Of a DNA stretch of 64,000 nt, positions 1-12,316 are shown piece after piece. The stretch covers positions 62,001-126,000 of the forward strand of contig NZ_BJYS01000002.1 in the NCBI RefSeq assembly GCF_007991635.1, read 5' to 3'. The DNA is from Adhaeribacter aerolatus (GTDB lineage Bacteria; Bacteroidota; Bacteroidia; Cytophagales; Hymenobacteraceae). Positions within the stretch are counted from its first letter, which is position 1, and each line of letters opens with the position of its first letter. The notes beneath the pieces are model-generated. The model was not told where the DNA came from. It was given only the letters and a program-made list of their open reading frames with translations, and made no database searches. The translations under genes were made by a program, and so were the position numbers.

Positions 1-1552
1 CCAGGAGTTTGCTGGCAACCAGTGCCCCGTAGGGCTGTGTGGTCGGGTTTATTTCCTGCAATAAATCGGTGATAGCGGTGTAGCGCAGTTCTGGCGGCAC
101 TACTCCAATTGGCTCTTTGGTAACCGACCGGAACACGTATTGCTTTTTGTTAGGTGCCTGCAACCGCAACGTTTTTGTTTGCAGGCCGCCCCCTGTTCTC
201 AACAACGATAAATTTTGTGGGTTTTGACCCAGATGAAAATAAGGCAGCTTTACGGGTTGGGTCCAGCTTTTGCGGTAGAGTTCACCCAGAAAGAATTTTT
301 TAAACCCAGAAGCTTTGTATTCCGGACCGGGGATGACGGTTGCAAAACTTTTTGGTTTGGCCGCAGGAATATTATTTTTTTCAGGATTAGTGCCTAATGC
401 GGTAATACAAGGACCAAAAGATGGGTTAACGGGTATTTGCTTATTTTCGGCCGGCTGACAGGCAGAGGTAAATAATACTTTGGTGGCTAGTTCCTGCAAA
501 CCGCTTTTGGTAAACGTATAAAAAGTACTGGTTACTTTGCCGCTGGTATAATAAGTAAGTTTGCTGAAACCCGTTTTGGCTTCGTTTACCAGACTTAAGG
601 CATTTTTCCCTACAAAATCTTGCTGTACAAAACTGCCCGATACCAAATGGTAATTTTCTTCGGAATAATTTAGCTGCAAATTATAATCGTGGGCAGCGGC
701 GTATATTACGGGTGGATTTTCTTTTAACAAGCGCTCCATTTTTTGTTTAAATGCTTGGTAATCCGGATTAGCCATGTCGCGGGGTGTGCCTACGTTTTGG
801 CGGAAGGCAGCGTAGAAACTGCCTAATATTGGGAGCGGTACGCGATTGGCCGGGTTGCGGTCGGCGAAGGGAAATAAATGTTTGCGGAGCGGCATGCGCC
901 CGCCGTACATGCCGTTGGAGATGATGGGGTGATGCCCAACCAATAAAATATTGCGGTTACCGGCTTCCGCAATCGCATCTTCCAGTTCTTCTAAAAAATC
1001 TTCGCGGGTATTTATTTTACAATCGGTATCGGGTTCGGTGGGCTTTTTATGCGGGTGCATCCACCATTGTGTATTCAGGGCAATAATGCGTAAGCCAGAG
1101 CCAATATCTATAATTTCGGGTCCGGGGCAACCTTGGCCGGGTAACAAAACTTGTTTGCGGTTCAGGTTGCGGCTCAAATATTCTTCCAGGCGCTTCACAT
1201 CGCTTAGCCCATCGGGTCCCGAATTATCCCAATCTTTATCGCCGGGTACAAAATACATGTTGCCCAGCGGGTTGGTGTTGGTAAGTTGCAGTAGTAAATC
1301 GAGTTTATCGGTAGTTAATTTTTCTTTTTTGCCCAAACCTTGGTTAGCGGCAATATCGCCGAGGTGCACCACCGTAAAAGGGTTCTTTTGCTTGCTTAAT
1401 TCCTGCTGAAATGCAGTAAGACTTGCCTCCGGCACCGCCGCCGTAGCCGTGTTGCCAATTAAATATACCTGGTGCAGTACGGAATCCGGAGTTTGCGCCC
1501 GGGTAGCAAAAGCCAACAGCCAAAAGTAAAGGAATAATAATTTTTTTGTCAT
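1..1552 (-). CDS. Metallophosphoesterase (calcineurin-like), C-terminus beyond window
   Basis: The reading frame is open from an ATG at 1552 down to base 1, so only the N-terminal ~517 residues are present. It begins with a signal peptide (MTKKLLFLYFWLLAFATRAQ). A metallophosphoesterase pattern follows: VVHLGDIA near residue 52, a PGDKDW stretch near 85, and VGHHPIISNG near 190, which correspond to the metal-binding GD.., GD/N and GHxP/H blocks of calcineurin-like enzymes. Secreted Bacteroidota proteins of this kind are often much longer, with a C-terminal outer-membrane beta-barrel region; whether that holds here cannot be seen. Substrate unknown. The family call is fairly safe from the motifs; the role is not inferable. 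Confidence 0.8.
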   Translation of the reverse strand, partial: MTKKLLFLYFWLLAFATRAQTPDSVLHQVYLIGNTATAAVPEASLTAFQQELSKQKNPFTVVHLGDIAANQGLGKKEKLTTDKLDLLLQLTNTNPLGNMYFVPGDKDWDNSGPDGLSDVKRLEEYLSRNLNRKQVLLPGQGCPGPEIIDIGSGLRIIALNTQWWMHPHKKPTEPDTDCKINTREDFLEELEDAIAEAGNRNILLVGHHPIISNGMYGGRMPLRKHLFPFADRNPANRVPLPILGSFYAAFRQNVGTPRDMANPDYQAFKQKMERLLKENPPVIYAAAHDYNLQLNYSEENYHLVSGSFVQQDFVGKNALSLVNEAKTGFSKLTYYTSGKVTSTFYTFTKSGLQELATKVLFTSACQPAENKQIPVNPSFGPCITALGTNPEKNNIPAAKPKSFATVIPGPEYKASGFKKFFLGELYRKSWTQPVKLPYFHLGQNPQNLSLLRTGGGLQTKTLRLQAPNKKQYVFRSVTKEPIGVVPPELRYTAITDLLQEINPTTQPYGALVASKLL

Positions 1553-1654
1553 TTTGTAGCGGTGCCGGCCTGCGCAAATATTTTAGCCCTAAGCGTATTG
1601 GTAAATATTTATCAACACATACTTAAGGCCGCGCTGTAATGTTGGGGCAACTAC

Positions 1655-1694
1655 AAAAAAAGCCAGGCTTCGCGGCGTTATCGCAAAGTCTGGC
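1655..1694 (-). terminator. Rho-independent terminator of the 1728-2432 lipoprotein gene
   Basis: On the minus strand an imperfect stem GCCAGaCTTtGCG / CGCgAAGcCTGGC is followed by a run of seven T. It lies about 35 bases past the stop codon of the lipoprotein gene. Confidence 0.75.
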
Positions 1695-1727
1695 ACCTAA
1701 ATTAACGATGGCCGGTTAGCCGGCAGC

Positions 1728-2432
1728 TTAATAATGCAAGTCGAAATTATTCAGCACAAAAGGCTGTACGTAAACCGAATCTTTTAGCTCCTGGGTTTGG
1801 CCATTGTGCGTTACTTTATATTTCAGGCGGATATACGTATTACCGGCTACCTGGCCTAAGTTTAAAGTTTGTTCGCCGGTACCTGTAAAAGTAAAAGCGC
1901 GGGGTGCTTTTACAATGCCCATTTTTTCGCTTTCGCAGTTAGGGCAAGTAACCGCAATTACATCGGCGCTGGCAGCCGGCGCGTTGTTTTTGAGCTTAAC
2001 CGCCAGCGTACCCAACGCATACATCGGGAACTGAAAGTTTTCTTCTTTTTTAAAATATTCCAGGAGTTGAAAATCGGCGTAAGAATCCGGAAAACCGTTT
2101 TTGCCTTTTGAGAATTGTTTGTACGTGTAGCCGGGTTTGTTTACTTCAACCCGGTAAACATCTTCAACCCGTTCGTAAGCAAAGGCAAATTTGCCGCTGA
2201 CATCGGTTAACGTTTCCTGCACCACCCGCGCATGCACCAGTATATTATCGTCGTCGGCAATTAATTGTACCGTAACATTTTCGAGGGGTTTACCGGTGGC
2301 CTGGTCTACAACGGTACCGCTTACTTTACGGGATTTATCCAGAATGGAATCTTCGGTACAGGAGGTAAAAAGAAATAAAAGAGCTATCAGCGACAGCCCG
2401 GCTAAATTTATTTTAGAAAAGAACGGGTTCAT
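1728..2432 (-). CDS. Lipoprotein with carboxypeptidase-regulatory-like domain
   Basis: 234 residues. The N-terminus is a type II signal peptide with a lipobox ending at Cys25 (LLFLFTSC). Residues ~35-110 read as a carboxypeptidase regulatory-like (CarboxypepD_reg/Ig-like) fold: KVSGTVVDQATGKPLENVTV, then DVSGKFAFAYE and an RVEVNKPGY segment. The rest has no recognised domain but contains a CPNC pair (VTCPNCES, ~residues 160-167) that could bind metal or form a disulfide. Probably anchored at the outer membrane or cell surface. It lies downstream of the SH3 gene and its hairpin array, on the same strand. Specific function unknown. Confidence 0.75.
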   Translation of the reverse strand: MNPFFSKINLAGLSLIALLFLFTSCTEDSILDKSRKVSGTVVDQATGKPLENVTVQLIADDDNILVHARVVQETLTDVSGKFAFAYERVEDVYRVEVNKPGYTYKQFSKGKNGFPDSYADFQLLEYFKKEENFQFPMYALGTLAVKLKNNAPAASADVIAVTCPNCESEKMGIVKAPRAFTFTGTGEQTLNLGQVAGNTYIRLKYKVTHNGQTQELKDSVYVQPFVLNNFDLHY

Positions 2433-2503
2433 GTAAGAATAATGCGAAGCAGGAATAGACAGAGAAGCGAGGTAAGCAGAATATTTATTTGTAAAGAAAA
2501 TTT

Positions 2504-2547
2504 GCTGGCTTCCCGGAAAATGCTTGCTGATTATCCGGGAAGCCAGC
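2504..2547. terminator. Perfect 14-bp stem-loop ending the first hairpin-array region
   Basis: GCTGGCTTCCCGGA at 2504-2517 pairs perfectly with TCCGGGAAGCCAGC at 2534-2547 around a 16-base loop. On the minus strand it follows the mini-hairpin array and is followed by AAATTTTCTTT, so it may terminate the SH3/array transcript. A weaker T-rich stretch is present on the plus side too. Confidence 0.5.
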
Positions 2548-2574
2548 TTTTAATTTTTGAAGCATACTAGCGGA

Positions 2575-2711
2575 AGCCTTACGGGGCTAGCAGAACTGGT
2601 AACGAGCAAGCAGCCTTACGGGGCTGTGTTTCGTGTTGGTGTTAAGCCTTACGGGGCTTGATTCAAGTATAAGCCTTACGGGGCTCAGTTGGGGTAAAGC
2701 CTTACGGGGCT
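2575..2711 (-). repeat. Array of five identical 14-bp mini-hairpins (array 1)
   Basis: Five exact copies of AGCCTTACGGGGCT lie at 2575-2588, 2612-2625, 2645-2658, 2672-2685 and 2698-2711, all in the same orientation. Spacers are unrelated, 23, 19, 13 and 12 bases long. In the minus-strand transcript each copy reads AGCC-CCGTAA-GGCT, a 4-bp stem with a constant 6-base loop. The array starts 60 bases past the SH3 gene stop and would form its 3' untranslated region or a separate small RNA. The 14-mer was not noticed anywhere else in the window except array 2. Confidence 0.9.
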
Positions 2712-2718
2712 AAACCAA

Positions 2719-2760
2719 TCTGGGGTGACCGTTGGCTTACGGGCGAACGGTCACCCCAGA
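2719..2760. other. Perfect 15-bp stem-loop just past the first SH3 gene
   Basis: TCTGGGGTGACCGTT (2719-2733) is an exact reverse complement of 2746-2760. The 12-base loop reads CGCCCGTAAGCC on the minus strand, which contains the same CCGTAA core as the neighbouring mini-hairpins. It lies 10 bases beyond the SH3 stop codon. There is no good T-run, so a structural or protein-binding role is as likely as termination. Confidence 0.7.
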
Positions 2761-2770
2761 TTTTACAAGC

Positions 2771-3067
2771 TTACTTTTTAGCAATTACTTGCTGAGTCGC
2801 CGGCTTAGCTGGTTTGGCTAACTCTGCCGTTAATACGTAACCAACTTGTCCGTTTACGGTTACAATGGTCCAGCTTTGGTTGTAGCGACGTACTACTACA
2901 ATCTCGTCGGCGCTTTTCAAGGCTTTAAGTACTTCGGTAGAAGTGCCGGGCTGGCGGTACATTTTACTGTTTTCGTAACGCGCACTAGCTGTTACTACCT
3001 GGTGGCCATCGGCAAAACCAAAAGCGGTTTGGGCGGCCAGGGCTAAGGTTAAAATAATCTTTTTCAT
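2771..3067 (-). CDS. Small secreted SH3-like domain protein (copy 1)
   Basis: 98 residues with a cleavable signal peptide (MKKIILTLALAAQTAFGFA). The mature part resembles a bacterial SH3 domain: VTASARYENSKMYRQPGTS, then IVVVRRYNQSWTIVTV and NGQVGYVLTAEL, the usual pattern of a short strand, an RQPG turn, the W-T-V strand and the final GYV strand. Bacterial SH3 domains of this type are usually exported and bind peptidoglycan or other envelope material. It is nearly identical to the protein at 7186-7479, and both are followed by a mini-hairpin array. Role unknown. Confidence 0.8.
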   Translation of the reverse strand: MKKIILTLALAAQTAFGFADGHQVVTASARYENSKMYRQPGTSTEVLKALKSADEIVVVRRYNQSWTIVTVNGQVGYVLTAELAKPAKPATQQVIAKK

Positions 3068-3737
3068 AGTTTTTGGTGTTTTAGGGGTCGGGGTAATTAT
3101 TTATTCTATTGTTAACAGCTAAATTATTCTTGGTAATGTGCTGTTGTTTAAAGTTGTGCAAGCGGCGTGCCAAATATTTTGCTTTACTATATAACAGCTT
3201 GAAATATTTAACAAATTGGGCTGGCTTGCTGTGCGTTAGCATTTCAAAGGTGCAAAAAGCTTCGATTATCCTAAAATAATATTCCCTGAAGTGCTCATTA
3301 TACCGGTTGAATGACCAGATTAATACCTTGAATAGCATAGACCGGTAGGCAAATATTCTTATTTAAATTTATAGAATGATTAAATAATGCCTGCCAGCAT
3401 TTAAATATTTAGATAAAAGACAGTTAGAAGTATTTCCGAAGGCGTCCGTATCCGGACAGCGGTGTACGATTATGTAGCAACTGCTCCGTTGTTCAGGAAT
3501 TTTCCGGATAGAAGAATAGATTAAGTTTAAAGCCCAAAAGAAGGTTCAGCTATTTTTTTTAATAGCTCCGATGCTTCTTTAATCAGACGTGAAGTAAGAT
3601 ACACCTAGGTACAGGCTAACGGGTAAACTAATCTTTTTGCAAAGAAATTTATTTGAACACAGAAGAAGCAATAAAGACCGGAATTTTTATTCTGTATCTT
3701 TATACTTGTTTATATATATAGTATATTCGTTGGTTTA
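3068..3737. other. Long intergenic region before accessory island 1
   Basis: AT-rich and without a convincing gene. A short minus-strand frame (3081-3338) lacks coding character. A compact palindrome GTCCG-TATC-CGGAC sits at 3444-3457 and could be an operator. The first part must contain the promoter of the SH3 gene, but I could not place it with confidence. Confidence 0.5.
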
Positions 3738-3802
3738 GGTGCGTTTATATCTTAGAAAATGGTGGTATGAATGCACCACTTACGTTTATAAATGAGTTGG
3801 CC
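3738..3802 (+). other. Island 1 leader ending in an attC-like core
   Basis: A ~65-bp sequence ending in GTTGGCC (3796-3802), 17 bases before the first cassette gene. It aligns with 58083-58145 ahead of island 2: both open with GGTG, share a TTAG(A/G)AAATGG block, then CGTTTA, and end in AGTTGG. A hairpin GTGGT/ACCAC is present within it. The position suggests a boundary or attachment site for inserted cassettes; this is inference. Confidence 0.5.
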
Positions 3803-3819
3803 ATAATTTTAATCAGAAT

Positions 3820-4524
3820 ATGATAAGAATACTGTATCTCTTTTTAATCACTGTTCTTTTTTCATCCTGCAGTGAGCAGAAAGAAGTATATGAGTACTAC
3901 AGATTTGGAAAACAGATTACACCAAGTGGTAAGTTTGTCATCTACGATTATGCTAGGTATGGACCAATGGCTTTTAGTTCAGACATTTCTAATACGGAGT
4001 TATTTAGAATTGATGAAGAATTTAAGGAAGGTGAAGGCCAAGAAATTGATGGTTCAATAAGTTAATGGATTTCTAACGATACCTTATTAATCTTCAATTT
4101 TAAGTCTGACCTTGAACAACCAAAGGATACCTTACCAATAAAGACAGAATATACTAAGCTTGGAGACTTTACGGTAAAAACAGTTTATTACAAGGCTAAT
4201 TCAGGAGGAAGAGCTATTTATGACTTTGACTCAGTTGCTACTACAAGCGATTCAGTATTTATCAGAACAGTTTCAGATAAAAAAGGCAAGCAAGTTTTGC
4301 GTTTCCCACTTGGTGCAACTACAATCAAAACAAAGGCAGATTCAATAGTTCATATTGCTGTCGACACTCGACTTGAAAAAAGCATGAACTTTGTTCATAA
4401 GAATCCTGATGGAACCTTTACAAGCAGACTACCAGAGGTAGGAACCACATGGTACGACTTAACACCGATAAAAAGGATTTCTCCGAATGGACTAAATACA
4501 AGAAAAATCTTCTGGGAGGAATAA
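3820..4524 (+). pseudogene. Lipoprotein gene with a single in-frame stop
   Basis: A lipoprotein start (MIRILYLFLITVLFSSC, Cys17) leads into 81 codons and then TAA at 4063-4065. The same frame is open again straight after the stop (WISNDTLLIFNFKSD...) and runs to a stop at 4522-4524 (...GLNTRKIFWEE), giving about 235 codons in all. One substitution at codon 82 would restore the full protein, so this is most simply a recent nonsense mutation; readthrough or a sequencing error cannot be excluded. Composition is AT-rich, unlike the flanking chromosome. It is the first cassette-like unit of island 1, bounded by the leader core at 3796 and the palindrome at 4534-4597. I do not recognise the family. 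Confidence 0.75.
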
Positions 4525-4533
4525 AAAACTTTG

Positions 4534-4597
4534 GCCAACAAGGTATAAAAGTCAAACTTCGGCTAAGCCTCGTTCGCCTTCTATACAAAGCGTTGGC
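4534..4597 (+). repeat. attC-like palindromic site a
   Basis: Outer arms GCCAAC (4534-4539) and GTTGGC (4592-4597) are exact complements. Inner arms GTATAAAAG (4543-4551) and CTTCTATAC (4578-4586) pair at 8 of 9 positions. This nested R/L box layout is that of integron attC recombination sites, though the outer boxes do not fully match the classical RYYYAAC/GTTRRRY consensus. It separates the lipoprotein pseudogene from the HEPN-like gene. Confidence 0.6.
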
Positions 4598-4639
4598 GGC
4601 AATGCTAAGAATCAATTAGATAAAATTCAAAACAAACTG

Positions 4640-5281
4640 GTGAACTTAATCTATAAGGGTAATAATGAAATCCTATTAAATCTTGCTAAAAAGAATTTGG
4701 CAAGAAATAAGATTGAACTTGCTGAGTATACTCAAAAGTTTATCGACGAAAACGCGAATGGGACAGCTAAATCCTTCGAAGAATATGTGCCTGAATTCTC
4801 TGAATTAGAAAATATAGATTGGATTTTCTTAAATTCTATTTTTATTGCGCTCTACGCAAATTTTGAAAATCACATTTTAATGCTTTCAAAGTTTGTGGAA
4901 AGCAAGAATTTAAGTCCTATTACTTTGAATGACCTTAAAGGCATTGGTTATCTAGACCAATATAGAAAATATCTACATCTTATTGGCCAAATAAAAAGTG
5001 CAGAAAAGAACGCTTACTGGGAAGAAATTGATATTTACAAGTTAGTAAGGAATAAATTAGCTCATGAAGGGGGCTTCTTTGTAAGAAATCCAAAGTTAAA
5101 GTTAGAAAGTCAGAACGGATACAAATACCTTATGGACAATAAGGTTTTACTAGCTGGTTCTTATGGACATATAAGGATAAGAGAAATACATTTTTTAGAA
5201 AAGTTTGTAAACTTATCAAATCAAGTTTCTGACCAGTTAGTTGAAGAGATAAATAAAAGTACGCCCGCCAACCACGTGTAA
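4640..5281 (+). CDS. HEPN-like domain protein (cassette gene)
   Basis: 213 residues from a GTG start. The key feature is LVRNKLAHEGG with R137-N138-K-L-A-H142, the R-x4-H signature of HEPN domains, on a largely alpha-helical protein. HEPN proteins are commonly ribonucleases in toxin-antitoxin and defence systems, or non-catalytic scaffolds; no antitoxin partner is visible. The frame stays open upstream of 4640 through the palindrome without an ATG, so the start is uncertain. The C-terminal codons and stop lie inside the next attC-like site, as happens in integron cassettes. The sequence is AT-rich, suggesting transfer. The HEPN call rests on this single motif and predicted helicity. Confidence 0.6.
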   Translation: MNLIYKGNNEILLNLAKKNLARNKIELAEYTQKFIDENANGTAKSFEEYVPEFSELENIDWIFLNSIFIALYANFENHILMLSKFVESKNLSPITLNDLKGIGYLDQYRKYLHLIGQIKSAEKNAYWEEIDIYKLVRNKLAHEGGFFVRNPKLKLESQNGYKYLMDNKVLLAGSYGHIRIREIHFLEKFVNLSNQVSDQLVEEINKSTPANHV

Positions 5282-5339
5282 ACGCCAGCTCCGGCCGATG
5301 GCCTCCGCTGCCTTTTACACAAGTCCGTAGCCGTTGTGG
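5267..5339 (+). repeat. attC-like palindromic site b
   Basis: GCCAAC at 5267-5272 and GTTGTGG at 5333-5339 form the outer boxes. GTGTAAA (5276-5282) and TTTACAC (5314-5320) are exact complements as inner arms, extended by CAGC/GCTG. The centre is a GGCC-GAT-GGCC hairpin, like the GCCGACGGC centre of sites c and e in island 2. The HEPN-like gene's stop codon lies inside it. Confidence 0.6.
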
Positions 5340-5382
5340 TAATACACTTTATTGGTTGCCAGACTGGCAAAATATTTAGAAA

Positions 5383-6126
5383 ATGGAATTCAACTCAAAC
5401 AACCATATTGTTAAACGCTGTCTGCAAGGTATGGTCATGGAAGAAAATGGCCAACCGGAAGAAGCAAGCAAGCTGTTTCAGCAAGCCTGGCACGAAGCCA
5501 CAAACGACTTTGAAAAATTTTTGGCTGCTTATTATGTAGCCCGCCAGCAAAAAAATATTGCCGACAAACTAAAATGGCTCGAAACAGCTTTAGGGTTTGC
5601 CTTAAAAATAAACAACGATGCCGTTAAGAGTGCTTTTCCGGCGCTGTATTTAAATATTGCCCAATGTTATGCAGACTTAGGCGAACCGGAGAAGGCAAAA
5701 CAGCAAGATGCTTTAGCCACTACATTTAAAGATAAACCATCCGACAAAGGTCCTTTTTATCATGGCACAAAAGCAGATTTGCAGGTTGGCGATTTGCTGA
5801 CAGCAGGGGGGAGTTCTAATTACCAAGCTGAACTCAAAATGAACCACATTTATTTCACAGCCCTGGTTAATGGGGCAGGGCTTGCGGCGGCATTAGCCAA
5901 AGGCGATGGACGTGAACGGGTTTATATGGTTGAACCAACCGGGCGTTTCGAAAATGACCCGAATGTGACAGACAAAAAATTTCCGGGTAACCCAACCCGC
6001 TCTTACCGCTCCGAGGCACCATTAAAAATTGTTGGCGAAGTAACCGATTGGGAGAGACAAACACCTGCGGAAATCCAGCAATGGCGCGAAAAGTTGGCCA
6101 ATAACAAAGGCGAGATTATTAACTGA
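5383..6126 (+). CDS. arr: Rifampin ADP-ribosyltransferase (Arr) with N-terminal TPR-like domain
   Basis: 247 residues in two parts. Residues ~1-120 are helical and TPR-like (EENGQPEEASKLFQQAW, AYYVARQQKN, YLNIAQCYADLGEPEKA). Residues ~123-235 match Arr enzymes closely: GPFYHGTKADLQVGDLL (His127), KMNHIYFTAL, VYMVEPTGRFENDPN, then KFPGNPTRSYRS and IVGEVTDWE. Arr transfers ADP-ribose from NAD+ to a hydroxyl of rifamycins, inactivating them; the His, Tyr and Asp positions used by the family appear kept. Usual Arr proteins are about 140 residues, so the extra domain is the distinctive feature. The gene begins 44 bases after attC-like site b, consistent with cassette-borne arr genes elsewhere. Substrate in this organism is untested. 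Confidence 0.88.
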   Translation: MEFNSNNHIVKRCLQGMVMEENGQPEEASKLFQQAWHEATNDFEKFLAAYYVARQQKNIADKLKWLETALGFALKINNDAVKSAFPALYLNIAQCYADLGEPEKAKQQDALATTFKDKPSDKGPFYHGTKADLQVGDLLTAGGSSNYQAELKMNHIYFTALVNGAGLAAALAKGDGRERVYMVEPTGRFENDPNVTDKKFPGNPTRSYRSEAPLKIVGEVTDWERQTPAEIQQWREKLANNKGEIIN

Positions 6127-6155
6127 TGCTCTTTGGCAAGGGTACTTTAAACCAA

Positions 6156-6190
6156 AGTGGCCTGTAATCTTACTGAAATTACAGGCCACT
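6156..6190. terminator. Perfect 13-bp stem-loop between convergent genes
   Basis: AGTGGCCTGTAAT (6156-6168) is an exact inverted repeat of 6178-6190 with a 9-base loop. It lies between the ends of arr (+) and the 6237-6851 lipoprotein gene (-), so it may terminate both, although neither side has a strong T-run. Confidence 0.5.
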
Positions 6191-6202
6191 GAAACCGTTG
6201 CT

Positions 6203-6214
6203 GGCTTACGGGCC
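6203..6214 (-). other. Isolated mini-hairpin with the CCGTAA loop
   Basis: On the minus strand this reads GGC-CCGTAA-GCC, a short hairpin with the same loop as the array hairpins but a different stem sequence. It sits about 25 bases past the stop codon of the 6237-6851 lipoprotein gene, again in a 3' untranslated position. It may be a single member of the same RNA motif family, or chance. Confidence 0.35.
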
Positions 6215-6236
6215 GGCAAGGCGGGTTTAAAAATAA

Positions 6237-6851
6237 TTAGCCGTTTATTTTTGAAAAGCTACTGGAGTTACTGCCTCTTACGGTTTTGCCGTTCTCCAAA
6301 GTCAGGTTGTATTCCAGGGTGTAAGTATTACCAGAGCCAGATACTTTAACTGTACCGCCAGTGGCGTGGATGGGCGTTTCATCCGATAACATGCGGTTGC
6401 CGTTCGTGTCGATATAAATCTGGGCATCGCCAAATACCGATTTACCTTTATACTTTTGTTCCAGTTGGCTTTCGCTCAGGCTGCCATCATTGCCATTATC
6501 AATATAATTAAAGGTGCCGGTATTAAATTTATCAGTTCCATTAGAAACCAGCTCGGTATAAATGGCAAAGCTGCCGCTTACTTCTTCCACCGTCCCGTTC
6601 CGGTATAAAATATTGCCGTTGGCTATATAAAAATCGTTAATGTAATGGGTATCGTCATCGCCATACAAGGTTTCGGCCCCGTACTCCACCATCAGGCTTT
6701 CATCCATCTCGTATTTGGTACCATTGTATTCTACTTCGTTTTTGGCTGGTTTCGGATCGTCTTTCTTTTCGAATAAGCTACAGGAGGTTGAGGCAAACGT
6801 GAGCACCAGGGCCAAAGTTGATAATTTGAGGGTGTTAAATGTTGTTTTCAT
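6237..6851 (-). CDS. Lipoprotein of unknown function
   Basis: 204 residues with a lipoprotein signal peptide (LVLTFASTSC, Cys24), a charged linker (KKDDPKPAK) and a beta-rich acidic body. The middle (YIANGNILYRNGTVEEVSGSFAIYTEL...TGTFNYID) and end (TGGTVKVSGSGNTYTLEYNLTLENGKTVRG) have strand-turn-strand spacing typical of small beta-sandwich or lipocalin-like surface proteins in Bacteroidota. No catalytic motif is evident. It lies downstream of the second SH3 gene and array on the same strand, the position held by the 1728-2432 lipoprotein at the first copy, but the two lipoproteins do not look related. Confidence 0.7.
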   Translation of the reverse strand: MKTTFNTLKLSTLALVLTFASTSCSLFEKKDDPKPAKNEVEYNGTKYEMDESLMVEYGAETLYGDDDTHYINDFYIANGNILYRNGTVEEVSGSFAIYTELVSNGTDKFNTGTFNYIDNGNDGSLSESQLEQKYKGKSVFGDAQIYIDTNGNRMLSDETPIHATGGTVKVSGSGNTYTLEYNLTLENGKTVRGSNSSSFSKING

Positions 6852-6933
6852 AGTTTTGTTTTTGCGTTAGTTTGGTGTTTTTTGGTTTGTTTATTTTTGA
6901 ATAATTTAGGCTGCTTTAAACACACCTCCTGCG

Positions 6934-6954
6934 GCCGGCTCTGGCGGAGCCGGC
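6934..6954. terminator. Stem-loop ending the second hairpin-array region
   Basis: GCCGGCTC (6934-6941) pairs with GAGCCGGC (6947-6954) around a 5-base loop. On the minus strand it follows array 2, the same position as the 2504-2547 stem-loop after array 1. Confidence 0.5.
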
Positions 6955-7002
6955 TTTAAATTTTTGCTGCAGGTTCAGGTATTTTTTAGAGGCACCAGCG
7001 GA

Positions 7003-7110
7003 AGCCTTACGGGGCTAGCAGCACTGGTAACGCGTAATAAGCCTTACGGGGCTTGGGTGAAGGTTGGAATAAAGCCTTACGGGGCTTTTGGGGTTTAGCC
7101 TTACGGGGCT
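7003..7110 (-). repeat. Array of four identical 14-bp mini-hairpins (array 2)
   Basis: Exact copies of AGCCTTACGGGGCT lie at 7003-7016, 7040-7053, 7073-7086 and 7097-7110, all in one orientation, with spacers of 23, 19 and 10 bases. The first two spacer lengths match array 1, and the outermost copies share flanks in both arrays (GCGGA before, AGCAG.ACTGGTAACG after). A degenerate copy (AGCTCCGTAGGC on the minus strand) lies near 7155-7167, between the array and the SH3 gene. The array belongs to the 3' side of the 7186-7479 gene. Confidence 0.9.
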
Positions 7111-7185
7111 AAAAGGGTAATTAATGCTAAAGGCTGGAATTTAAAGTTTGCGGTCTGCCTACGGAGCTTACCGAAACCCTAACCT

Positions 7186-7479
7186 TTACTTTTTAGCCAT
7201 TACCGCGCTGTTAGTGGTTTGGGGTTTGGCCAATTCCGTCGTCAGCATGTAGCCTACTTGCCCGTTCACGGTTACAATGGTCCAGCTGCTGTTGTAGCGG
7301 CGCACTACCACAATTTCGTCGGTGCTTTTCAAGGCTTTGAGAACTTCGGTAGAAGTGCCGGGCTGGCGGTACATTTTACTGTTTTCGTAACGGGCACTGG
7401 CCGTTACCGCCTGGTGGCCGTTGGCAAAACCGAAAGCGGTTTGAGCGGCCAGGACTAAGGTTAAAATAATCTTTTTCAT
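7186..7479 (-). CDS. Small secreted SH3-like domain protein (copy 2)
   Basis: 97 residues from the ATG at 7479, chosen because it begins the same MKKIILTL signal peptide as copy 1; the frame is open 15 codons further upstream but those residues do not look like a signal sequence. The SH3-like core is nearly identical to copy 1, with Ala/Thr, Gln/Ser and Val/Met exchanges, and the two diverge only in the last dozen residues (QTTNSAVMAKK versus AKPATQQVIAKK). Gene and downstream array together form a diverged direct repeat with 2575-3067. Probably exported to the periplasm or envelope; function unknown. Confidence 0.8.
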   Translation of the reverse strand: MKKIILTLVLAAQTAFGFANGHQAVTASARYENSKMYRQPGTSTEVLKALKSTDEIVVVRRYNSSWTIVTVNGQVGYMLTTELAKPQTTNSAVMAKK

Positions 7480-7944
7480 AGCTTTTTGGTGTTTTAGGGG
7501 TCGGGGTTTAATTTTTGTTGGCAACCAACGGTTTGTTATCTGGTTGCGTTACAAATTTGCATCAGGATTTAAGCGAATAAAAATTAGTTTAAATGAAGGG
7601 CCGAAGACACCGGATGAATGCCTAAAATAGGGGGTTAAAAGCCGATGATAACCAGCCCGGAACGGGTAGTTTATTAGGTTGTTAAGTAGCTGATAATTAT
7701 TGGTTTATTGGCTTTAAGCTATGTATTTTAAACAGTAACTCCTGGTAATAGCAGTGTTTTGGGGTAAGTTTATCTCGGCCCGACAGACCGGTTGCGCTAA
7801 TTTTTAGACTTAAAATAGAGACTTAATATTTAGCCAAAAGCCATTAGCTTTGAGGTTACACGAAGGTGCCTGAACAAAATTTTTACAGATAAGTTAATAA
7901 GGGTAAATCAGGCTCTATTACGGCCTGACAGCCCAACGTATTTT
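7480..7944. other. Divergent intergenic region upstream of SH3 copy 2 and polA
   Basis: No gene seen. It must hold both promoters. A small hairpin CCCGGAACGGGTA occurs at 7656-7668 and recurs exactly at 60323-60335 upstream of mgsA. Confidence 0.5.
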
Positions 7945-10788
7945 ATGAGCGAGAGAACCAAAAAATTGTTTTTGCTGGATGCCATGGCCCTGATTTTCCG
8001 GGCGCACTTTGCCTTTAGCAAAAATCCCCGCATTAATTCCAAAGGCATGAACACCGGGGCCGCCCTCGGGTTTACCAATACGCTGTTTGAAGTTTTATCC
8101 AAGGAAAAACCCACCCACATTGGCGTGGCTATGGACGGGCCGGAGAAAACTTTCCGGCACGATAACTTTACCGAGTACAAGGCCCACCGCCAGGCCATGC
8201 CCGAAGATATTGGCATTGCCATTCCGTACGTGAAAAAAATTGTGGATGCCTTTAATATTCCGTTGCTGATATTGCCGGGCTACGAAGCCGACGACATTAT
8301 TGGTACGCTTTCCTGCAAAGCCGAAAAAGCCGATTTTGACGTGTACATGATGAGCCCCGATAAAGACTTTTGCCAGTTGGTAACCAACCACGTGTTTCTG
8401 TACAAACCGGCTTTCCTGGGCAACGGCGTAGATATTTTGGATGTGAAAAAGGTTTGTGAAAAGTGGGAAATAAGCAATGTAAAGCAGGTAATTGATATTC
8501 TGGGTTTGCAGGGCGATGCCGTCGATAATATTCCGGGTATTCCGGGTATCGGCGAAAAAACCGCTAAATCCCTGATTCAGAAATACGGCTCCGTTGAGAA
8601 TTTAATTGCCCACGCCGACGAACTGAAAGGCAAGCAACGCGAAAATATTATCCAATACGCCGAGCAAGGATTATTGTCGAAAGAACTCGCTACCATTCAT
8701 TTGGATGTGCCTATTGCTTTCGACGAAAGCCAGTTTGAGTACAAGGGCCCGGATGTGGCAAAATTAACGGCCTTGTTCGAGGAGCTGGAATTCCGGCAAC
8801 TGGCGCAGCGGATTTTGGGTACAAGTCTGGCAACTGCTCCGGCCAAAACCCCCGTTAAGACTACCCGCACCCTGGTAAAAGGAAAAAAATCGGATCAGCA
8901 AAGCTCTTTGTTCGAGGATCTGGACGAAATATTGGTAGATGCGCCGGAACCGGCGCCGTTGCCGGCCGGCCAGAAAAAAAATATCAACAACACGCTGCAC
9001 GATTACCATTTAATTAACACCCCGGAACGGCGCGCCAGCCTGGTAAAATATTTAAAGCTGCAAAAAGAAATTTCTTTCGATACCGAAACCGACCGCCTCG
9101 ACCCGATTACCGGCCGTATGATTGGCATGTCGTTTTGCTATTTGCCCGGCGAAGCCTATTACGTAACCGTGCCCTTAGACTTAGTTGAAGCCCAGCCCAT
9201 TGTAGACGAATTCCGCGAAATACTCGAAAACCCGAATATTACCATCATCGGGCAAAATATTAAATACGATATCCTGATTCTGAAATCGTACGGCATTGAG
9301 GTAAAGGGGAAAATATTTGATACCATGCTGGCTCATTATTTACTGGAGCCAGATATGCGCCACAACATGGATTTGCTCTCCGAGACGTACCTGGGTTACA
9401 CGCCGGTTTCTATTACCGAACTAATTGGTAAAAGAGGAAAAAAGCAACTTACCATGGCCGATTTAACGCCGGAAGAAGTGTATGAATATGCCTGCGAAGA
9501 TGCCGATGTAACCCTGCGCCTGAAAAACTACTTCCAGCCACTGCTGGAAAAAAATGGCCTGATGAAGCTGTTTACCGAAGTAGAAAACCCTTTGGTGCCG
9601 GTGCTGGCGGGCATCGAGAAAGAAGGCATTGCCATTGATGCCAGCGCCATGGCCGAATCTTCGAAGGAATTATCGGGTTATATGGCGGAGTTAGAACAGC
9701 GCATTTACGAACTGGCCGGCACCCAGTTTAACATTGGCTCACCCAAGCAGCTCGGCGAAATATTGTTCGAAAAGCTGGGCATTCAGGAAAAAACGAAAAA
9801 AACCAAAACCGGTCAGCACGCCACCGGCGAAGAAATATTATCGAAGCTGGCGCACAAACACGAAATTGCCCAGTTAATCCTGGATCACCGGGAAATGGCC
9901 AAGCTTAAATCGACCTACATTGATGCGCTGCCGCAATTAATTTGTGAGTCGGATGGGCGGGTGCATACATCGTTTAACCAGGCCGTAGCGGCTACCGGGC
10001 GTTTGAGTTCTACCAACCCCAACTTGCAGAATATTCCCATTCGCACTGAAAAAGGCCGCGAAATCCGGAAAGCTTTTGTGCCGCGCAATCAGGATCACTT
10101 GCTTATTTCGGCGGATTATTCGCAGATTGAATTACGCATTATGGCCGATTTCAGCGGCGATGCCACCATGAAAGAAGCTTTCCAGCAAGGTTTGGATATT
10201 CACGCCTCTACGGCGGCCAAAGTATTCAGGGTGCCCATCGACCAGGTAGACAGCGATATGCGCCGGAAAGCCAAAACCATTAATTTTGGTATTATTTACG
10301 GTATTTCGGCTTTTGGTTTGGCCGAGCGCCTGAATATTCCGCGCCGCGAAGCCGCCGATATAATTGAAGCATATTTTCAGGAGTTTCCGGCCGTAAAAGG
10401 TTACATGGACGAAGCCATTGGTAAAGCCCGCGAGCAGGAATACGTACAAACTTTGCTGGGCCGCCGCCGCTACCTCCGCGATATAAATTCGCAGAACGCC
10501 AATATTCGGGGTTACGCTGAGCGCAACGCTATTAACGCGCCTATCCAGGGTACCGCCGCCGATATTATTAAAATTGCCATGATTCACATCCACGATTGGC
10601 TGAACGCAGAAAAACTAAAAGCCCGCATGGTTTTGCAGGTGCACGACGAATTGCTGTTTGATGCGCCGAAAGCCGAAATAGACTACATAAAACCCCACAT
10701 AGAAAATTTAATGAAAAATGCGCTGCCCCTGAGTGTACCCATGGAAATTGGGATAGGTGTAGGGCAAAACTGGCTCGAAGCGCACTAA
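7945..10788 (+). CDS. polA: DNA polymerase I
   Basis: 947 residues, a normal full length. Residues ~5-290 form the 5'-3' exonuclease (LFLLDAMALIFRAHFAF, GYEADDIIGTL, helix-hairpin-helix at GIPGIGEKTAKSLI). After a linker, residues ~345-530 are the 3'-5' exonuclease with its acidic residues kept: Asp378 and Glu380 in SFDTETD, then QNIKYDILIL and YACEDADVTLRL, so proofreading should be active. The C-terminal polymerase carries motif A DYSQIELR (~725), motif B RRKAKTINFGIIYG (~773) and motif C QVHDELLFD (~898). It removes RNA primers and fills gaps in replication and repair. Monocistronic, with its own terminator. Confidence 0.98.
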   Translation: MSERTKKLFLLDAMALIFRAHFAFSKNPRINSKGMNTGAALGFTNTLFEVLSKEKPTHIGVAMDGPEKTFRHDNFTEYKAHRQAMPEDIGIAIPYVKKIVDAFNIPLLILPGYEADDIIGTLSCKAEKADFDVYMMSPDKDFCQLVTNHVFLYKPAFLGNGVDILDVKKVCEKWEISNVKQVIDILGLQGDAVDNIPGIPGIGEKTAKSLIQKYGSVENLIAHADELKGKQRENIIQYAEQGLLSKELATIHLDVPIAFDESQFEYKGPDVAKLTALFEELEFRQLAQRILGTSLATAPAKTPVKTTRTLVKGKKSDQQSSLFEDLDEILVDAPEPAPLPAGQKKNINNTLHDYHLINTPERRASLVKYLKLQKEISFDTETDRLDPITGRMIGMSFCYLPGEAYYVTVPLDLVEAQPIVDEFREILENPNITIIGQNIKYDILILKSYGIEVKGKIFDTMLAHYLLEPDMRHNMDLLSETYLGYTPVSITELIGKRGKKQLTMADLTPEEVYEYACEDADVTLRLKNYFQPLLEKNGLMKLFTEVENPLVPVLAGIEKEGIAIDASAMAESSKELSGYMAELEQRIYELAGTQFNIGSPKQLGEILFEKLGIQEKTKKTKTGQHATGEEILSKLAHKHEIAQLILDHREMAKLKSTYIDALPQLICESDGRVHTSFNQAVAATGRLSSTNPNLQNIPIRTEKGREIRKAFVPRNQDHLLISADYSQIELRIMADFSGDATMKEAFQQGLDIHASTAAKVFRVPIDQVDSDMRRKAKTINFGIIYGISAFGLAERLNIPRREAADIIEAYFQEFPAVKGYMDEAIGKAREQEYVQTLLGRRRYLRDINSQNANIRGYAERNAINAPIQGTAADIIKIAMIHIHDWLNAEKLKARMVLQVHDELLFDAPKAEIDYIKPHIENLMKNALPLSVPMEIGIGVGQNWLEAH

Positions 10789-10792
10789 AGAA

Positions 10793-10832
10793 ATAAACCC
10801 TCAGGCCGCCGGTAAGTGGCCTGGGGGTTTAT
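10793..10832 (+). terminator. polA terminator
   Basis: ATAAACCC..AGGCC pairs with GGCCT..GGGTTTAT a few bases after the polA stop codon; interrupted stem with an A/T-rich base and downstream AT sequence. Confidence 0.7.
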
Positions 10833-10981
10833 CATAAATATTGCCAACCTGTAGATAGTGGTATTTTATACCAAATCGTATTTACATCCTTCCATAGCTA
10901 ATTAACAAATATTATTAAAGCCCACAGAGCAATATTTCCTGTAGTTTACTATGGAATATAGTTTGTACTATTTGGTATTGA

Positions 10982-11446
10982 TTATTGCGGGACATACGTG
11001 ATTTTTAAAACGTAATTATAGCCCTGTTCGGTAAAAGTGCGTTCCAGCACCATTTGTTTTGGTGTTAGCTCCAGTATGGTGTAGGTTTCGGTAAAATGCC
11101 CGCGTTGGTACGGATACGTCCATTTTAAAATATTATCCGCAATAACCCAGGTGCCTTCCTGGTAAATCTGCGGGTCGTTCTGGTAACACCGGGTAGCGCC
11201 CTCATCAATCATATATTTACCATCCGAAGAAAACTTATAAATATCGTCTCTGGTACAGTTGGTAACACTGGGCGTTGTAAACAGGTCGTAGGGCGGGCTC
11301 GTATTTTCCGTAACCAGATAATTCGTAATCTTCCAATCTTTGCCAACGATTAGTTCGGAATTACTGGGCGGATCATTATCTTTCTCACAGCCAACAAACA
11401 CCAGCACTAAAACCAGCATTACTAAAAGGGAGTTGAGGTTTCGCAT
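10982..11446 (-). CDS. Lipocalin-like lipoprotein A
   Basis: 154 residues with a lipoprotein signal peptide (LVLVFVGC, Cys20). The body has the pattern of small Bacteroidota lipocalin-like lipoproteins: GKDWKITNYLV near the start, TNCTRDDIYKFSSDGKYMIDEGATRC in the middle, and GTWVIADNILKW...TYTILELTPKQMVLERT. The paired cysteines (TNC..TRC) may form a disulfide. It shares this layout with the protein at 11807-12316 and is probably a distant paralogue. Likely cell-envelope located; ligand unknown. Confidence 0.75.
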   Translation of the reverse strand: MRNLNSLLVMLVLVLVFVGCEKDNDPPSNSELIVGKDWKITNYLVTENTSPPYDLFTTPSVTNCTRDDIYKFSSDGKYMIDEGATRCYQNDPQIYQEGTWVIADNILKWTYPYQRGHFTETYTILELTPKQMVLERTFTEQGYNYVLKITYVPQ

Positions 11447-11806
11447 AAGGAATAAGTTTAAGTAACAGGTTTAGAGGAGTTTGTTGCCGGGAATTAACAA
11501 GATTACAATTGCATCAGCCATTCTGAAATTTCTTCAACGGTAATTCTTTTGGACAGATACATGCACACCAATTTTAATTAAAATAAAATTATATAATTCT
11601 GATTCTTAAAGGCTTCGGTACGGGGCAGGCGGAGAATATCCTAAAATACAGAAAAATATTTAAAAAGAAAACCACCTGGTATGCGGCCTTCTATTTTAAT
11701 AAATCAGGACTTATGCGAACTATAATTACCTAGGAGCTGAATGCCGGCCCACAAAAAAAGCCACTTCAGCAGTGGCTTTTTTTGTGGTATAACTAAACCC
11801 AAGTAT
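11447..11806. other. Intergenic region between two lipocalin-like genes
   Basis: Contains a strong terminator (11752-11786) close to 11807 and presumably the promoter of 10982-11446 at the other end. Nothing else recognised. Confidence 0.5.
11752..11786 (-). terminator. Strong bidirectional terminator
   Basis: AGCCACT-tcagc-AGTGGCT with seven A before and seven T after. On the minus strand it ends the 11807-12316 gene. Confidence 0.9.
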
Positions 11807-12316
11807 TTATTGGGCAGTAAAAGTTAAATCTATTTTTGAAGGAACTGCTGTTGTGGTGCCAGGTAAGGTTAGGCCTTCGTTAAAAGTTACTTTTAAAGTC
11901 TGGTTGGTTAGTGTTACAACCTTTAAGTTTCTAGGCGCTGAAGTAGTTAAACCATAGGAAAGTAAAATATTGCCGTTAATTGTGATTACATCGCCGGTGG
12001 TAGCATTTTCCTGGAAGCTCCAGGTACCCGGAACAGTTTGTGGTGCGTTAGGTGTACATTTTGTTGGCCCTTCGTCAACCACCACCACGCCGCCAGTGTT
12101 AAAATCTAAAAAATTATCTTTTTGGCAATCAACCAAAAGACCATAAAGATTAAACTCAGTGGATAAACCGGTAGGTACAGCCTTAGCTTCGGTAACTTTC
12201 CAATTCTTCGACATTATAATTTCTTCTTTTGTTGGTTCGGCATCGTCGTCTTTATCGCAACCGGCAATTACAAAGGTTAAAAAGAACAGGAAGATTAACG
12301 CACTATAATTTTTCAT
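11807..12316 (-). CDS. Lipocalin-like lipoprotein B
   Basis: 169 residues with a lipoprotein signal peptide (LTFVIAGC, Cys20) followed by an acidic DKDDDAEPTKEE linker. The body follows the same plan as 10982-11446: SKNWKVTEAKA, VDCQKDNFLDFNTGGVVVVDEGPTKC, PGTWSFQENATTGDVITING, NLKVVTLTNQTLKVTF, including the paired cysteines and DEG(A/P)T.C. These are typical of secreted lipocalin-like Bacteroidota proteins. Tandem arrangement suggests an old duplication. Function unknown. Confidence 0.75.
   Translation of the reverse strand: MKNYSALIFLFFLTFVIAGCDKDDDAEPTKEEIIMSKNWKVTEAKAVPTGLSTEFNLYGLLVDCQKDNFLDFNTGGVVVVDEGPTKCTPNAPQTVPGTWSFQENATTGDVITINGNILLSYGLTTSAPRNLKVVTLTNQTLKVTFNEGLTLPGTTTAVPSKIDLTFTAQ

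Follow-up and report, generated by a model that had tools for sequence, protein, structure and literature searches.

A stretch of 64,000 nt from the Adhaeribacter aerolatus genome (assembly GCF_007991635.1, contig NZ_BJYS01000002.1, positions 62,001 to 126,000, forward strand; "the window" below) contains two arrays of short hairpins, each just downstream of a gene for an SH3-like secreted protein. Comparison with paralogs in the same genome and with seven other Adhaeribacter genomes, among them A. rhizoryzae DK36 and A. aquaticus DSM 16391, indicates that the conserved unit is not the repeated 14-mer of the window but a hexaloop with its closing pair, which reads C-[CYGUAA]-G in the sense orientation of the SH3 genes. 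With moderate confidence, the arrays are read here as an RNA element in the 3′ untranslated region (3′UTR) of Adhaeribacter SH3 mRNAs, which would be bound through the loop by a trans-acting factor, probably a protein. Strand asymmetry, constraint on the loop, covariation of the stems and concentration behind SH3 genes can be read from the sequences; we infer binding and titration by the array RNA.

Nine exact copies of AGCCTTACGGGGCT lie on the plus strand of the window (Table 1). Every position given in a preliminary description of this DNA was confirmed, as was the placement of each array just 3′ of an SH3-like gene on the transcribed strand; gene 2 is 86% identical to gene 1. With up to two mismatches allowed there are ten matches in the window, a number reached by none of 100 dinucleotide shuffles. 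Across the whole genome (6.68 Mb in 95 contigs) the exact 14-mer occurs 11 times, nine times in the window and twice on contig 48, and the reversed control pattern is absent. The contig 48 pair is likewise 3′ of an SH3 paralog, and each of the three groups follows, in the same direction, one of the top three among ten SH3 matches (identities to the query of 100, 86, and 85%). A random scatter over the genome, which would have spoken against a link to these genes, did not occur: all 11 copies are at SH3 genes.

The two arrays are themselves paralogous, with 79% identity over 107 nt between 2553-2659 and 6981-7087, and spacers one and two are 23 and 19 nt long in both. None of the 22 mismatches in this alignment is in any of the 42 columns occupied by hairpins (P = 3e-6, hypergeometric). 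The spacers, 10–23 nt long in the window overall and longer at other loci, are thus diverged relatives among which the hairpins have been kept; they had been called unrelated, which does not hold, while the selection on the hairpin that had been proposed is borne out as a constraint.

Constraint and the link to SH3 genes are thus upheld, but an identical stem, part of the same description, is only a local property; the wider constant, across paralogs and congeners, is the loop CYGUAA, on stems with compensatory substitutions. The contig-25 paralog of A. aerolatus has the hairpin GTGAGC-CCGTAA-GCTCAC and relatives of it, and behind its A. rhizoryzae counterpart CYGTAA is enclosed by GTGAAC/GTTCAC, GTAGCC/GGCTAC, GTAAAT/ATTTAT, and GGTGAGC/GCTCACC. 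In A. aquaticus there are eight such loops behind one SH3 gene and five behind another. Among the eight, nine of the twelve arm positions vary, with pairwise differences of 0.46–0.68; one T and both bases of the closing C-G are invariant, and the loop differs only at Y (0.43). In five copies of the AGCC type from two species the last unit is nearly unchanged (about 37 nt, with flanks CCAG/CTGG, one of them CTAG), and other A. rhizoryzae units of this type have compensatory A-T for G-C, C to T in the loop, and in one case a broken hairpin. The perfect identity of the 14-mers in the window is therefore a local feature, superimposed on a broader constraint that acts on the loop.

Covariation was scored on 30 distinct hairpins chosen out of 45 by loop and inner stem. 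The consensus has a closing C-G pair (U-A in one of the 30, the only two-sided change at this position) and the loop C-Y-G-U-A-A. Overall, 86.7% of cells are paired and all seven pairs have changed on both sides, with a score of 0.728 against 0.248 for shuffled and at most 0.168 for slid versions. A count of wobble pairs gave 11 G-U to 8 A-C over seven pairs and 6 to 1 in the five inner pairs, a weak test because G-U was allowed when the set was chosen.

The loop also stands out when hairpins are taken by stem alone. Hexaloops from nine array regions were compared with those following 227 control frames from contig C1, each 200 codons long or more. CYGTAA accounts for 12 of 12 with stems of at least 6 bp (0 of 36 in controls), 20 of 23 at 5 bp or more (0 of 114), and 34 of 42 at 4 bp or more (0 of 338). 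With any loop of 3–9 nt and at least 5 bp, in the 400 nt behind 43 of 46 SH3 matches (three have no locus), 24 of 159 hairpins have CYGTAA and two more TTACGG, compared to none of 674 behind the control frames.

The strands differ both in the orientation of the hairpins and in folding. CYGTAA hairpins of at least 4 bp, present in 15 of the 43 SH3 3′ regions and in none of the 227 control regions, number 38 in sense and two in antisense orientation, both of the latter being terminators of genome G005. Copies of the 6-mer with shorter stems add 22 sense and nine antisense in the 43 regions; a stem of 4 bp or more is absent from all control copies, 57 of them sense and 66 antisense. The sense RNA of array 1 (2500-2770) folds better than its shuffles (z −8.1), with the last unit (2575) paired differently in the minimum-energy fold, as does that of an A. 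aquaticus array (z −6.1). Antisense array 1 reaches z −1.3, with 25 of 200 shuffles as good. A UNCG-type loop on the antisense strand was set aside, since the U variants would break it and antisense array 1 folds little better than shuffles; such a loop does occur on the SH3 sense strand in two G005 terminators.

Eight loci were found in a profile scan of contigs with the SH3 alignment, all in Adhaeribacter. A covariance-model search of the eight Adhaeribacter genomes, with 150 of 1265–2531 first-look candidates scored in each, placed the best match directly 3′ of an SH3 gene in seven, although for G005 the match is on the other strand. The eighth genome is 78% complete and has its best match behind an ankyrin-repeat-like open reading frame (ORF). 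Notable further matches are those in G003 and G006 that run antisense to the 16S leader, and two more in a G006 region beside a 318-aa ORF. This region (L198 2901 and 3760, minus strand) has CCGTAA-loop hairpins of 5 and 10 bp about 860 nt apart, one of them just after the ORF, which looks phage-like by eye. The pre-16S hairpins with UUACGG (L172, L177, L178, L183, L186) have different stems in the G003 and G006 species.

A scan for any loop shared by at least three hairpins within 500 nt, covering the window, 400 kb of contig C1, and 45 further loci, returned only CCGTAA/TTACGG clusters at SH3 genes, and neither of these loops is among the eight commonest in the 400 kb of C1 at any stem length tried; a loop of general use in hairpins was rejected. 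Of 61 SCCCGTAAGS sites in the A. aerolatus genome, 16 are at SH3 loci or the neighboring lipoprotein gene and 45 elsewhere. All 21 of these 45 that have the form GCCCGTAAGC show stems of 2–5 bp and no other copy closer than 400 nt. In the family, 18 of 204 genomes matched the double pattern CCCGTAAG..CCCGTAAG, and about 36 matched its reversed control. Three of the 18 are Adhaeribacter (G000, G001 from A. rhizoryzae, G004 from A. aquaticus), and the other 15 have one to three matches each, judged from the listed matches only. A triple pattern in 390 genomes drawn evenly from the order, without G001 and G004, matched A. aerolatus and two genomes of the same family (42-nt spacing), these two likewise judged from the listed matches. 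Seventeen stretches of viral contigs (IMG/VR) with the exact pattern are by eye tandem or coding-like repeats and include no array, a result for the letters and not for stems, and plasmids had no match to 601 bases. Outside the genus, five SH3 relatives turned up in four of 16 genomes, and CYGTAA is absent from the 300 nt behind each of them. Exact patterns miss CTGTAA loops and other closing pairs; within these bounds, no such array was found outside Adhaeribacter. Rfam 15 gave four matches up to E 1 at seven loci, none at an array. Titles and opening lines of abstracts in the open-licence PMC literature describe no element of this form, and that literature returned nothing related on Adhaeribacter hairpins, Adhaeribacter SH3 proteins, or CCGUAA hairpin loops.

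On a tree of 43 SH3 proteins, the presence of the hairpin (16 genes, single terminators included) needs five changes. At least three of them are forced by well-supported branches, though three may be one gain and two losses. One group of array genes consists of the two in the window, that on contig 48, and two from A. rhizoryzae; the other, weakly joined, of the contig-25 gene, its A. rhizoryzae counterpart, and two A. aquaticus genes. The second group falls with a clade of 12 SH3 genes, four of which have a single terminator GGTGAAC-CYGTAA-GTTCACC, two the inverted loop, one CCGTAG, and five another or no such hairpin. The element is a wider family that includes the single terminators, and a single origin of the arrays with losses may account for the pattern. 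Probably an SH3 terminator hairpin with a CYGUAA loop multiplied, persisting as a single copy in the related clade, and the 14-mer arrays of the window would be a locally homogenised version of it.

Each unit of the arrays combines a short stem, free in sequence and covarying, with a closing C-G pair and the hexaloop CYGUAA. A putative trans-acting factor, most likely a protein, would read the loop and closing pair, with several copies per mRNA providing avidity, and the tail of the mRNA would serve as a regulated 3′UTR (stability, read-through) or as a titrating RNA. When the stems of one tandem array are free and covary around a constant loop, the sequence itself bears a clean signature of loop recognition. 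This points to an RNA-binding factor in Adhaeribacter, where CsrA and RRM_1 gave no match, and the array RNA offers a concrete bait for it. As a more specific and quite tentative suggestion, these could be a new class of regulatory RNA, in which secreted-SH3 mRNAs, many with sigma-54-like promoters, carry up to eight CYGUAA hairpins in the 3′UTR that bind a loop-specific protein, each mRNA both encoding a protein and titrating a regulator.

Several observations weigh against recognition of the loop. It is not fixed in the single-terminator clade, where both G005 copies are inverted and others have CCGTAG, GAACGG, or ATAAGA on similar stems, so a terminator does not need it. If hairpin-free genes are ignored, the array genes form one side of one branch of the tree, and the arrays come from three species, with related copies that are not independent. 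The selection of the covariation set makes loop conservation there a matter of construction and inflates the inner three pairs. Of the 60 sense CYGTAA copies in the 43 SH3 regions, 22 have fewer than four contiguous pairs, some of them inside arrays, and 28 of the regions have no such hairpin. The one broken A. rhizoryzae unit belongs here too.

In a first alternative, the arrays are a chain of terminators or mRNA-protecting hairpins with no trans-acting partner, sharing the loop only by descent from one SH3 terminator. In the related clade, single same-loop terminators with a U tract do come directly behind the stop codon of the SH3 gene, and three arrays end in such a terminator (L126 of A. 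aquaticus, that of the G001 C53:208128 gene of A. rhizoryzae, and L051 of A. aerolatus). However, divergence in the A. aquaticus array affects nine of the twelve arm positions but not C1 and GUAA of the loop, and most array hairpins have 4–7 contiguous pairs without a U tract. Hairpins of that kind are weak for termination, and the explanation is considered unlikely, if still to be taken seriously. The arrays might instead be leaders or attenuators of the next gene, a loop-binding protein controlling read-through past the following terminator as ANTAR proteins do. Each window array is flanked by its SH3 gene on one side and, past a terminator-like hairpin, by a gene on the same strand whose N-terminus looks like that of a lipoprotein; ANTAR targets are described in PMC3369931 as two short stems with conserved hexaloop positions. 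But the residues here are C1 and U4 where ANTAR targets have A1 and G4, the next ORF is convergent behind several of the single-hairpin SH3 genes, and downstream genes vary from locus to locus, which makes this improbable.

A palindromic repeat acting at the DNA level (REP-like or mobile), with copies alike through duplication or gene conversion and no RNA function, would explain why the window 14-mers are identical, why its two arrays are paralogous, and why arrays occur in two groups of SH3 genes. Copying does not predict different stems with the same loop, though, and the restriction of the 14-mer to SH3 3′ ends in its own genome, the single orientation of all array copies of at least 4 bp, and the strand-specific folding leave it decidedly improbable. 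Pairing of the exposed CCGUAA loop with UUACGG in another RNA, as a kissing complex or sponge, appears more remote again. It would suit a conserved, accessible 6-mer, and a hairpin with UUACGG, the exact complement, precedes the 16S rRNA in G003 and G006. A U at loop position 2 would weaken the pairing, and the leader hairpin is known from just these two genomes, both with single-hairpin SH3 terminators, in a search that did not extend to A. aerolatus. Recognition of the loop by a trans-acting factor remains the preferred reading.

Several known systems have partly similar arrangements. CsrB/RsmZ-type RNAs, which titrate CsrA/RsmA, display a single loop motif on numerous hairpins of the same molecule. 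The arrays share the repetition of one loop motif over many hairpins, but with CYGUAA in place of GGA loops and, it appears, as the tail of a protein-coding mRNA; CsrA/RsmA was found in none of the eight Adhaeribacter genomes at E 1e-3, with three of 14 control genomes positive. CRISPR arrays have repeats of about 23–50 bp, regular spacers, and cas genes. They were rejected here, as they had been at the outset: the units are 14 bp, the short spacers are homologous between arrays, and inspection by eye of the ORFs in window 1-12000 showed no cas gene, with a Pfam scan covering six of these ORFs. Type III toxin-antitoxin RNAs are tandem repeats directly upstream of a ToxN-like gene; the arrays here are downstream of SH3 genes, and the next same-strand genes observed, with no dedicated search made, are lipoprotein-like or Hsp20. 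Repetitive extragenic palindromic (REP) sequences, also short intergenic palindromes, are reportedly high-copy (PMC3733652), unlike a 14-mer with 11 copies, all at SH3 genes. That number is too few for a DNA uptake sequence, which was rejected. A mimic of the tRNA-Tyr anticodon loop, which has seven bases, was set aside, as the loop here has six and position 2 is mostly C.

ANTAR proteins are the nearest analogue in mechanism. As presented in PMC3369931, the target RNAs of EutV, NasR, and AmiR have two short stems, a variable linker, and hexaloops with A1 and G4. The arrays resemble them in tandem short hairpins, hexaloops with fixed positions, conserved closing pairs, a variable linker, and proximity to terminators. 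They differ in the loop (CYGUAA, thus C1 and U4), in having three to eight units rather than two, and in lying behind a gene rather than in a leader. Another paralogous RNA family in the Bacteroidota is FopS of Bacteroides, whose RRM-1 partner RbpB prefers single-stranded regions (PMC11697453); in contrast, no RRM_1 match was found in the eight Adhaeribacter genomes at E 1e-3, with two of 14 control genomes positive, one of them Bacteroides. TIGR arrays, according to PMC12045711, also consist of palindromes in tandem that vary in sequence and contain short motifs that are fixed; their stem-loop units have two spacers of 8–12 nt with box C/D motifs and are accompanied by a Nop-domain protein. 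The Adhaeribacter loop is instead a constant hexamer, no dual-spacer box C/D arrangement is present, and no Nop-domain Tas protein was among 14 proteins scanned with Pfam, a sample and not the genome.

Sigma-54-like promoters (TTGGCAC-N5-TTGCA and looser forms) were found upstream of 23 of the 43 Adhaeribacter SH3 genes, mostly 80–110 nt before the start. They precede 13 of 16 hairpin-bearing and 10 of 27 other genes (Fisher P = 0.010), for a loose pattern and related genes, with one CCGTAG gene counted as hairpin-bearing; the association hints at shared regulation. Farther from the start than the promoter, the contig-25 and A. aquaticus genes have an inverted repeat that is visible by eye.

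The SH3 label of the array genes rests on weak matches. Gene 1 matches Pfam SH3_3 (PF08239) at E 4e-4 and 20.8 bits, below the Pfam cut-off of 27, and for gene 2 itself Pfam gives nothing at E 1e-3. The same holds for the four array-gene proteins scanned, three with an SH3_3 match below the cut-off and the fourth (gene 2) with none, and profile matches to solved chains are at E 0.0025–0.008. On the sense strand, array 1 is preceded by a longer hairpin with the same loop and array 2 by a degenerate one (Table 1). A further hairpin with this loop, behind the lipoprotein gene, has by eye 3 bp, a mismatch, and 4 bp adjoining the loop.

Table 1. Hairpin arrays and associated features in the window (window coordinates).
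Feature	Position	Strand	Details
Array 1	2575..2711	-	Five AGCC-CCGUAA-GGCU hairpins at 2575, 2612, 2645, 2672, 2698
Array 2	7003..7110	-	Four AGCC-CCGUAA-GGCU hairpins at 7003, 7040, 7073, 7097
SH3-like secreted protein gene 1 (98 aa), putative host mRNA of array 1	2771..3067	-	ORF; weak SH3_3
SH3-like secreted protein gene 2 (97 aa from ATG), putative host mRNA of array 2	7186..7479	-	ORF
First long hairpin after SH3 gene 1 stop codon; 20-nt arms, sense loop CCGTAA	2717..2762	-	
Terminator-like hairpin, 18-nt arms, after array 1 and before next gene (start 2432)	2504..2547	-	
Degenerate first hairpin, sense loop region UCCGUAG	7151..7173	-	Read by eye; aligned
GC-rich hairpin, 8-bp stem, after array 2 and before next gene (start 6851)	6934..6954	-	
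Hairpin, sense loop CCGTAA, 3′ of lipoprotein gene 6237-6851	6192..6228	-	Pairing by eye
Sigma-54-like promoter TTGGCAC-N5-TTGCA, upstream of SH3 gene 1	3157..3173	-	Pattern match only

Between the two SH3-array units, window 5383-6126 encodes a TPR-like N-terminal part followed by an Arr-ms (rifampin ADP-ribosyltransferase) domain. An Hsp20 gene follows an SH3-array gene elsewhere in the A. aerolatus genome (L197 15020-16239) and in A. aquaticus (L204 7129-8531), and MsrA-like and DUF983-like genes are near these loci. In A. rhizoryzae, a 9-bp hairpin with the array loop is found about 0.8 kb beyond one of the arrays (L208 near 8910, minus strand).

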